Shown piece after piece: positions 20,026 through 23,059 of a stretch of 24,494 bases of DNA. This stretch comes from a virus. The notes beneath the pieces are model-generated. The model searched no databases and was not told the DNA's origin. It worked only from the letters and a program-made list of their open reading frames with translations. The DNA lies in IMG/VR virus record IMGVR_UViG_3300031857_001316, positions 1 to 24,494 of that record; one strand, written 5' to 3'. Positions within the stretch are counted from its first letter, which is position 1. The number at the start of each line of letters is the position of its first letter. Both the position numbers and the translations under genes were made by a program.

Positions 20026-22701
20026 ATGGCACAAACAGCAAAATCACCGTTTGAAGTTTATTACGGAACTGATGGTACGCCATTAGAAAATGGTTACATT
20101 TATTTCGGTGAATATGGGCAAAACCCTGAAACTGTACCGATTCAAATTTACTGGGATGAAAGTTTAACTATTCAAGCAAGCCAGCCAGTGCGAACCGTAA
20201 ACGGCTATGCCTCAAGAAATGGAAGCCCGGCTAATGTTTATGTGCCTAGCAATTATTCTATAACCTTGCGTGACAAAAATAAGAATTTTGTTTTCTCATC
20301 ACTTTTAAATGAAACCGAATCAACAGCAGCTGCAAACGGCGCTAATAACTCCTACCCTTACGTGATTGATGGATTGTTGCCACTTCCACCAACTGGCGGG
20401 TGGAATAACCTCACTGCAACTTTTCCGACTGGCACGGCATGGGTTGAGGGAAATCAGGTTACATTTCCCGGGCAGGTTCTTTCTTTTTCTACAAATACAT
20501 ACACGGACGTGTACATTGACAAGGCCGGTCAATTGTTTGCAAAGTCAAACGCTACTTATTGGCTATTGACAGAGGAAAACGACAAGGCCAAGATTTGCAG
20601 GGTTCAGACTGATTCGTCAAAAATCCTCGGCCTGTCTGACATGCGGAACCGTGTCACCTCTGACCGTGTTTACGTTCCTGAAGCGTCGTTAGATTTTAAT
20701 AAAATTATTGGTGATTTTGACATTCCAAAGACTGCGCTTTCCTATGCTGCAAATACATTTTTCAATTATGGCGCAAAGGTAAAGATTGGCGATAACCTTT
20801 ATATCTGCCTGCAATCTGGTGTTACCGGCGCTGCAAGTGCTCCAAGTGGCTTTGTCGGTCCAACTTGGGATGAAGAGTTGCAATGTTATGTATTTGTCGA
20901 TGGCTCAGTTAAATGGTTTTTTATTGCTGAATTTGACATGCAAGGCTCATATCGTTGGGGCGTGAATAATGGCGTGGTTTGGTATTTCTCAAATCTTGGC
21001 ATCTTTTATATTTTAGATAGGCTGGGCAACACTAGAATTCAAGAATACTTGGACGCATACATTTTCAATTTGATTACCCGCTGGCTTTCAGGTGTGGCAA
21101 TCCAAAAAGGAATGAAGCGTTATATCAATGGAAACGTATACCGCGCCACCGTTGGTGGTACCACTGGAGTAACGGCGCCAAGTGGAACAGGAACGGCAAT
21201 TGTAGACGGAACCGTCACATGGAAATATATTTACCCGCACGTAGGTGAATATGTGGCATGGGCAACAGGCCAAGCAATTACGGCAGGCCAGCGCAGAACG
21301 TCTAGCGGCAACATTTACCAAGCAAGTACAAGCGGAACCACCGGAGCAACAGCGCCAACCGGAACTTCAGATGTTATAAATGATGGTGGTGTCACTTGGT
21401 ACTTTATGAATCCAGTAGGCGTGTTTACAACAGGCACCGACTGGTATGTAAACGATTTGCAACAGGATAGATATTCAATTCGTCCGGCAGACTCGCATGA
21501 TGCCTATGCCTCATCGTTTTTGCGCCTAGTGGCTCAGTGGTTGAAAATCAAGAATGATTATTCATGGTTGAGCGCTACAAACGTACACAACCAAACAAAC
21601 CTAACCACACTTAAAAACGTCGCGTTCTCAAACCTTGCGAGATGTCAAAAATCATACACAACCTGGGCGACCTCAACGGCATATACGCGTGGCTTGTATC
21701 GCGAGGCCAATGGCTCAGTATATCTATGCACAACTTCAGGCACATCGGCCTCTAGCGGTAGCGGTCCAAGTGGAACCGACCCAACTGTTTTTATTATTGA
21801 TGGTACGGCGCAATGGCGTTATCAGTACCCACTTGCCCAAGGTTTGATAACCACTTTTCAAAATGAATTGCATTCAAACGCACTAGAAAAATGGCCTGTC
21901 TGCTACTTGCAGGACAACTGCGAAAATTACTCCGGCTTAAAAGCGTTTTCTGACATGCTGGCGGTCATTGGCGATGCAGACACAACCTACTATGGAAACA
22001 TCGCAACAGGGGTTGCAGCAGGCGTTAAAGCGTTATATCAGGCATCAACAAAAGAGTGGCGCTTTGCAGATAATGCTTTGACTGTGAACCAAGCGTTTTA
22101 CCCGGACATGATGGCGGCAATTTTCCCTGAATTGCACCAAGTGCCGGTAGGAACCTCCCCCGAAATCATCGCTGACCTATACGGCCACGGGTATGAGTTC
22201 GTAAACCGAGTATTTCCTACTTGGTGGTATAGAAACCCTGACACTCTGGCCTCTTTGGTTATTGCCTATGTTGCGGTTCGTTATCGGCAAGAGCCTAAAA
22301 AGGGGGCAATGGCATTAGAGCACGCAATGTCGCACCACTTACGGCAAGGTTTACCGCAGCTTGGCACTTTTATGTTTTCCGACTTGTGCTATGCGTTTGC
22401 CATGCGCTCAATGATTGTGAATCCATTGGCGACGCAAGGCACACTATCTTTGTGGCAAGGTCAGGCGCGTGGAAGCCTTGAGTTCTCTGATGACGGTGTT
22501 TATGATTTGGGAACGGCAAACAAACGCCCAAGACGTGCGCTAATTCGTGAATTTGTGGAGCTGCAAGAATTGGCGGCAACCCCAAGCCAGCCAGTAGCCA
22601 ACCGAGCTAGATTGTTCACAAGGGACAACGGCAGCGGGAAAACTCAATTGTGCATATTATGGCCGGGCAATGCGGTAACTGTACTATCAACGGAACCTTA
22701 A
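20026..22701 (+). CDS. Tailspike with P22-type head-binding domain and putative glycan-acting helical domain
   Basis: Residues 1-105 match the P22 tailspike head-binding domain: ENGYIYFGEYGQNPETVPIQ (21-40), then QASQPVRTVNGYASRNGSPA, ending NFVFSSLL. A beta-rich adapter follows (110-215). The body looks helical, with GVVWYFSNLGIFYILDRLGN (316-335), ADSHDAYASSFLRLVAQWLK (488-507) and ATGVAAGVKALYQASTKEWR, reminiscent of (alpha/alpha)-barrel glycosidases or lyases; this is inference. Four copies of a small binding-type repeat, with GNxYxA/C, SGTTGxTAPxG and DGxVxW, lie at about 250-300, 365-402, 424-461 and 560-601. The end (ARLFTRDNGSGKTQLCILWP) is a common phage tail-protein C-terminal tag. 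No P22-like beta-helix is visible, so receptor specificity should differ. Confidence 0.85.
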   Translation: MAQTAKSPFEVYYGTDGTPLENGYIYFGEYGQNPETVPIQIYWDESLTIQASQPVRTVNGYASRNGSPANVYVPSNYSITLRDKNKNFVFSSLLNETESTAAANGANNSYPYVIDGLLPLPPTGGWNNLTATFPTGTAWVEGNQVTFPGQVLSFSTNTYTDVYIDKAGQLFAKSNATYWLLTEENDKAKICRVQTDSSKILGLSDMRNRVTSDRVYVPEASLDFNKIIGDFDIPKTALSYAANTFFNYGAKVKIGDNLYICLQSGVTGAASAPSGFVGPTWDEELQCYVFVDGSVKWFFIAEFDMQGSYRWGVNNGVVWYFSNLGIFYILDRLGNTRIQEYLDAYIFNLITRWLSGVAIQKGMKRYINGNVYRATVGGTTGVTAPSGTGTAIVDGTVTWKYIYPHVGEYVAWATGQAITAGQRRTSSGNIYQASTSGTTGATAPTGTSDVINDGGVTWYFMNPVGVFTTGTDWYVNDLQQDRYSIRPADSHDAYASSFLRLVAQWLKIKNDYSWLSATNVHNQTNLTTLKNVAFSNLARCQKSYTTWATSTAYTRGLYREANGSVYLCTTSGTSASSGSGPSGTDPTVFIIDGTAQWRYQYPLAQGLITTFQNELHSNALEKWPVCYLQDNCENYSGLKAFSDMLAVIGDADTTYYGNIATGVAAGVKALYQASTKEWRFADNALTVNQAFYPDMMAAIFPELHQVPVGTSPEIIADLYGHGYEFVNRVFPTWWYRNPDTLASLVIAYVAVRYRQEPKKGAMALEHAMSHHLRQGLPQLGTFMFSDLCYAFAMRSMIVNPLATQGTLSLWQGQARGSLEFSDDGVYDLGTANKRPRRALIREFVELQELAATPSQPVANRARLFTRDNGSGKTQLCILWPGNAVTVLSTEP

Positions 22702-22702
22702 A

Positions 22703-23059
22703 ATGAAAATACTATTTCTGCTAATGATGGCTTTTTCTTTTGACTATTCATTTGCGCAATTGCCTGCAATGGAAGAACTTCGTTATTGCGGAATTCCTGA
22801 GCGCGATGAGGATGGCTCAATTAGCAGAAGTAGTGCCGTTATTGCACAATTTAAAAGAATTCACCCATGTCCAGTAGATTGGAAAACGTCTGGCGCTTGT
22901 AAAGGCTGGGCGATTGACCATGTAATACCGCTCGCCTGCGGGGGTTGTGATGCAGTTAGTAATATGCAATGGCTACCAATTGGAATAAAATCACAGGCAA
23001 TTATTGGTAAAGATAGATTTGAAAGAAAAATCTATCAAAAAAATATTCAATGCAATTGA
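22703..23059 (+). CDS. HNH nuclease with signal peptide
   Basis: The 118-residue protein starts with a clear signal peptide (KILFLLMMAFSFDYSFA, likely cut before Q19), so it should act in the periplasm or outside the cell. The HNH core is WAIDHVIPLACGGCDAVSNM (69-88), with D72, H73 and N87 as expected metal/catalytic residues and QWLPIGIKSQ after it. Cysteines at 29, 56, 66, 79, 82 and 117 could form disulfides or a zinc site, fitting an exported fold. I know this family from bacterial and phage genomes as small HNH proteins; the substrate is not established. It lies one base after the tailspike stop and opens the lysis-side gene group. The ribosome site is weak. Confidence 0.82.
   Translation: MKILFLLMMAFSFDYSFAQLPAMEELRYCGIPERDEDGSISRSSAVIAQFKRIHPCPVDWKTSGACKGWAIDHVIPLACGGCDAVSNMQWLPIGIKSQAIIGKDRFERKIYQKNIQCN

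Follow-up and report, generated by a model that had tools for sequence, protein, structure and literature searches.

Genomic setting and layout of the tailspike gene

The window, by which we mean the whole 24,494-base virus record that was analyzed, contains the gene set of a P22-like podophage, with genes for a terminase, a P22-type portal, the major head protein, a head-tail adaptor, a stabilization protein resembling P22 gp10, an ejection-type protein, the tailspike, and an endolysin. The portal and the gp10-like protein were closest to those of the spring-water phages MW202867 and MW202475 and of Pseudomonas phage PfAn1. It was also noted that a single ORF with ParB-like and DNA methyltransferase domains (153-1385) is located just upstream of the terminase genes. 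The ORF immediately 3' of the tailspike gene (22703-23059) begins with a signal-like sequence and weakly matches HNH nucleases, and a small ORF at 23004-23504 matches phrog_1128 of the moron category (E=2e-37), the name of which, enoyl-CoA hydratase-like, looks doubtful for this ORF.

The tailspike gene is located downstream of genes for ejection-protein-like products and was divided into the following parts.

20026..22701, + strand: tailspike ORF with stop codon, 891 aa
20026..20340, + strand: P22-type head-binding (virion anchor) domain, aa 1-105; profile A13 against 1lkt and other P22-type tailspike PDB entries
20341..20742, + strand: middle β-rich linker domain, aa 106-239; strands in the model, 29% to 32% identity to L070/L076 despite their other anchor
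20743..20931, + strand: R1, CBM5/12-like module, aa 240-302; directly precedes the barrel; repeat scores and module profile
20932..21084, + strand: barrel segment 1, aa 303-353; carries the WYFSNLGIF motif and the first 2 helices; homologues in Cupriavidus and phages
21085..21243, + strand: R2, CBM5/12-like module (insert), aa 354-406; repeat scores, module profile, and excision test
21247..21420, + strand: R3, CBM5/12-like module (insert in tandem with R2), aa 408-465; phmmer match to 7eea (E=1e-8), repeat scores, profile, and excision test
21421..21651, + strand: barrel segment 2, aa 466-542; 2 model helices and homology
21490..21501, + strand: candidate catalytic acids D489-S-H-D492
21652..21834, + strand: R4, CBM5/12-like module (insert), aa 543-603; Pfam CBM_5_12 at E=9e-4 on aa 546-576, below the cut-off; repeat scores, profile, and excision test
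21835..22425, + strand: barrel segment 3, aa 604-800; helices from 624-647 to 784-798, and homology
21913..21924, + strand: motif D630-N-C-E633, candidate catalytic acids
22426..22698, + strand: C-terminal tail, aa 801-891; partly β, and missing from the repeat-free homologues

A P22 head-binding domain had been proposed for the N-terminus in the first-pass annotation, and this was borne out by a family profile (A13), which matched the P22 head-binding domain 1lkt with E=6e-6. The Pfam domain PF09008 was detected in 2 of the 7 family members (best value 1.1e-6), and not in the window sequence alone. The tailspikes of P22, Sf6, and HK620 likewise combine an N-terminal head-binding domain with P22-like tail gene neighbors, whereas their bodies are right-handed β-helices and the body examined here is probably an α/α barrel with inserted modules. 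The full-length protein gave no match in a scan of the genome collection, and no family was assigned to it in a search of NCBIfam. Searches of INPHARED by tblastn matched no phage with the body alone and gave no match with the repeats alone.

Four CBM5/12-like modules

The 4 repeats previously placed at residues of about 250-300, 365-402, 424-461, and 560-601 were recovered, with boundaries at aa ~240-302, 354-406, 408-465, and ~543-605 of the 891-residue ORF. In all 6 pairwise comparisons, the score (54-136) was higher than in any of 2,000 shuffles (maxima of 43-59), which rules out a chance origin, and a module profile found exactly 4 copies in the tailspike. All 4 modules were retained in relatives with 82% to 100% identity as well as in relatives with body identities of just 32% to 42%, and the profile detected no copy in any of 13 repeat-free homologues of the body.

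Against the PDB, the module profile matched the tailspike of cyanophage Pam1 (7eea, E=3e-12) and, over 38 residues, the chitin-binding domain of ChiA1 (1ed7, E=7e-5), as well as modules of chitin deacetylases. The match to Pfam CBM_5_12 was weak and under the gathering score. A Foldseek search of the PDB with the low-confidence tailspike model returned 7eea for the module, which superposes on that structure at 1.1 Å over 53 columns. Because of these matches and this superposition, the 4 repeats are classified from their sequences as CBM5/12-like modules. The Pam1 protein gp17 contains 1 copy of such a module (residues 493-545), whereas the window protein contains 4, of which 3 are located in the loops of the putative barrel. 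The receptor-binding domain of Pam1 gp17 is a β-helix with a distal β-sandwich (PMC9382816).

The modules were originally taken to be carbohydrate-binding, a proposal that held for the module type and less well for the ligand. In ChiA1, the surface residue Trp687 plays a major role in ligand binding (PMC3701571). The equivalent position is occupied by T or S in all 4 modules, such that the exposed chitin-binding Trp is absent and simple binding to chitin would not be expected. The modules also differ from 1ed7, to which they are similar in the profile comparison, in having an additional DGxxxW segment C-terminally. The modules might thus serve as structural spacers or trimer contacts rather than as sugar binders, a role that would be compatible with a catalytic barrel: small residues replace the CBM12 surface Trp in 4 of 4 modules, whereas the core and the DGxxxW frame have been conserved, and modules of this type are widespread in phage ORFs, mostly as one copy. 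We consider such a purely structural role unlikely, given the profile kinship to chitin-binding domains and to the modules of chitin deacetylases, the other Tyr and Trp residues that are still present, and the conservation by position of R1, R2, and R4 between diverged phages.

Modules R2 to R4 interrupt the homology of the body

Using the C-terminal half of the protein as a tblastn query, we identified a protein of 393 amino acids on a Cupriavidus megaplasmid, which has a lipoprotein-like signal but lacks the repeats. Further repeat-free relatives of the body were found in C. necator and, more distantly, in other Burkholderiales, and relatives without modules were present in the tail regions of 5 siphophage-like contigs (L014, L015, L023, L041, and L043). 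The Cupriavidus copy in one genome (G002; L025, L027-L029) is split into pieces on 2 contigs and contains an internal stop, and has therefore probably decayed.

When R2-R3 (aa 356-465) and R4 (aa 543-603) were excised, the local alignment score to the Cupriavidus protein increased from 282 to 380, compared with at most 373 for 500 random excisions of equal size and at most 59 for shuffled targets. With more distant targets, random excisions scored as well in 1 of 500 cases for L023 and in 4 of 500 cases for L043. Homology was continuous across the R4 insertion point, where NLAAVQK-PNGLIPVF aligned with NLARCQK-[R4]-QGLITTF. R2 and R3 form a tandem pair inside a single loop, and R1 is located upstream of the first barrel helix. 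Since R2-R3 and R4 interrupt the homology of the body and R1 precedes it, 3 of the modules are inserts and 1 is not. The suggestion that all 4 repeats interrupt the body was thus upheld for R2-R3 and R4 only, and an arrangement with 4 modules inside the barrel was rejected.

Fold of the body

The AlphaFold model of the whole tailspike was of low confidence, with a mean pLDDT of 48.7, although the barrel was better, with blocks of up to 86. The helix-rich segments noted earlier between and after the repeats appeared as 11 main helices (323-332, 336-351, 490-509, 525-541, 624-647, 653-668, 693-703, 712-729, 740-752, 757-773, and 784-798). The barrel matches obtained by Foldseek with this model were mostly (α/α)6 enzymes of the families GH52, GH63, GH116, GH37, GH78, GH94, and GH105, with modest E-values of 0.03 to 0.3. 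The model of the repeat-free C. necator homologue was of moderate confidence (pTM 0.70), and its best match was the methylmannose polysaccharide hydrolase MmpH (7qsj; probability 1.00, E=0.002, TM 0.48-0.54), followed by similar barrels of GH116, GH78, and GH125 and by some entries for linalool dehydratase, which shares the general fold. In BFVD, a fold search with the homologue was of little use beyond a single unnamed viral protein (E=0.008). The sequence profile A8 weakly matched a GH78 enzyme and an exo-arabinofuranosidase, and profile A10 found no relevant chain in the PDB.

The number and order of the helices agree with the roughly 12 helices in a double ring of an (α/α)6 barrel and the fold matches point the same way, at low to moderate model confidence. 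Together with the homology, they suggest that the body is probably a glycosidase-like (α/α)6 barrel, in line with the α/α barrel proposed at the outset. The fold of most phage depolymerases is a β-helix (PMC11326577), and MW202475 carries a body annotated as pectate lyase on the same type of anchor, which could point to an ordinary β-helix tailspike with incidental helices. This is hardly credible and was rejected: the body is homologous to helical proteins, and no β-helix was present for it among the Foldseek matches listed for either model, in Pfam, or in PHROGs.

Many α/α toroids are lyases, so that the body could instead be a polysaccharide lyase of the PL5 or PL8 type. The toroid depolymerases of phages are poorly characterized (PMC11326577). 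However, glycosidases and phosphorylases made up most of the barrel matches, alongside a few isomerases or epimerases, there was no polysaccharide lyase among the 50 matches listed for either model, and the conserved residues are carboxylates rather than a His/Tyr set. Lyase activity is therefore quite improbable.

Candidate active site

In an alignment of 15 members, N631, E633, Y692, P693, and W733 were invariant, while D489 and D630 were conserved in 14 members (with E replacing D489 in the remaining one) and D492 in 13. In (α/α) barrels, the starts of alternate helices share one side, the mouth, and the conserved acids are found at the starts of alternate helices. The modules enter at similar points: R1 precedes the helix that carries the WYF motif, and R2-R3 and R4 interrupt the loops ahead of the helices that begin with D489/D492 and D630/E633, respectively. 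From this helix order, rather than from a confident model, we infer that the modules are on the mouth side of the barrel.

The D-x-x-D pair and the Glu residue are also alike in MmpH, in which D47 and D50 are candidate acids and E262 is the base (PMC9883506). The shared D-x-x-D spacing is only a hint. MmpH is 12% identical and has neither modules nor a virion anchor. No match to 7qsj was obtained by phmmer or by profile, which limits the relationship to GH188, the family of MmpH, to similarity in fold. On the pattern of conservation, D489/D492 and E633 would be likely candidates for the catalytic acids at the barrel mouth.

A P-W pair present in 13 of the 15 homologues is replaced by A742-S743 in the window group (window 22249-22254), in which the remaining conserved residues are retained. 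This replacement, the additional modules, which would fit adhesion, and the homologues found here, which are without measured activity, could speak for a spike that only binds its receptor, with a barrel that has lost catalysis and binds the host glycan together with the modules. Such a loss is rather improbable, in that D489, D492, D630, and E633 are unchanged both in the window group and in L070/L076.

Gene neighborhoods of the bacterial relatives

Near 3 of the distant homologues, we identified genes for a GT2 synthase and a bactofilin-like or β-helical scaffold protein, along with, variously, a YaiO barrel, a UDP-GlcNAc 2-epimerase, and a polysaccharide deacetylase; GlmS, recognized by sequence, adjoins a fourth. 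These loci (L048-L051, in genomes G236, G105, G018, and G287) look like uncharacterized synthase-type exopolysaccharide loci. Loci of this type usually hold hydrolases such as BcsZ and PgaB, and the setting is as expected for a polysaccharide-processing enzyme. The neighborhood of the nearest bacterial homologues, in Cupriavidus, is not an exopolysaccharide locus. A barrel homologue was located next to GlmS in a virus record (L047, IMGVR_UViG_2791355336_000003), which at that end resembles a bacterial chromosome and not a phage.

Spread of the four-module architecture

A scan of IMG/VR for the module, in which 80 loci were kept, yielded 90 module-bearing open frames. The CBM5/12-like DGxxxW module was thus common across phage open frames, mostly as a single copy (67 of 90; loci L056-L135). 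Eight frames contained 4 modules; these were exactly the ones that contained the barrel, and the modules were similarly spaced (gaps of 44-45, 1-2, and 74-77). Six of the 8 proteins are close kin, while the other 2, L070 and L076, were 32% to 42% identical to the window protein in the barrel segments and only 20% to 25% in the anchor. The anchor of L070/L076 matches epsilon15-like tailspikes, whereas that of the window protein matches the P22 head-binding domain, a type that sits on other bodies elsewhere.

A tree inferred from the barrel sequences placed the modular proteins in a single group (89/96; 90% of bootstrap trees). Between the window protein and L070, the modules R1, R2, and R4 each matched best the module at the corresponding position, and R3 did not. 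As judged from these sequence comparisons, a single origin of the four-module layout followed by an exchange of anchors would be the simplest account. Because the layout was retained across the anchor swap and the modular bodies fall into one clade, we argue that it is functional.

A search with L070 against 400 genomes of the phylum gave known or weak matches only. In the L070 record itself, a second open frame of ~909 amino acids matched the R4 region of L070 (G767:C1:7216-7470), and modules may therefore occur in more than one protein of this record.

Discussion

We propose, with a probability of roughly two-thirds, that the protein serves a P22-like podophage as its tailspike depolymerase and has an (α/α)6 glycoside hydrolase barrel fringed by CBM5/12-like modules. 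The N-terminal head-binding domain would fix the spike to the tail, and the barrel would cleave a chain of bacterial surface exopolysaccharide or capsule, with D489/D492 and E633 acting in catalysis. R1, in front of the barrel, and R2-R3 and R4, in loops on the side of the active site, may hold the glycan near the mouth, such that binding would be coupled to cutting through the placement of the modules.

The design had been described as unusual, which applies to the layout of the inserts and less to the fold. DepoScope reported 984 phage proteins that have a depolymerase fold, of which 11 have an α/α toroid; the toroids, about 1% of its folds, were excluded from its training (PMC11326577). The window protein would probably fall into the same fold class as these depolymerases. 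As toroid depolymerases of phages are rare and already known, what is new here is how the inserts are arranged, together with the unnamed family itself. No tailspike combining a helical barrel with insertion domains was found in a literature search, which is only weak evidence.

More broadly, we put at about even odds the scenario that an unnamed glycoside hydrolase family is common to the synthase-type exopolysaccharide loci of Burkholderiales and to phage tails, that one phage lineage built CBM5/12-like modules into the active-site loops, and that the four-module cassette moved between P22-type and epsilon15-type anchors.

A tailspike is the tool with which a phage cuts through the bacterial coat, and a design with modules in the loops is rare. 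If our reading is correct, binding modules placed in the rim of the barrel, and not in series with it, would represent a distinct way of building a phage depolymerase. The result would be a defined toroid family for which bacterial relatives and candidate active-site residues are available and the points of insertion are clear, which opens the direct questions of whether inserted modules set the specificity of a depolymerase and whether phages have taken slime-cutting enzymes from the exopolysaccharide loci of their hosts.
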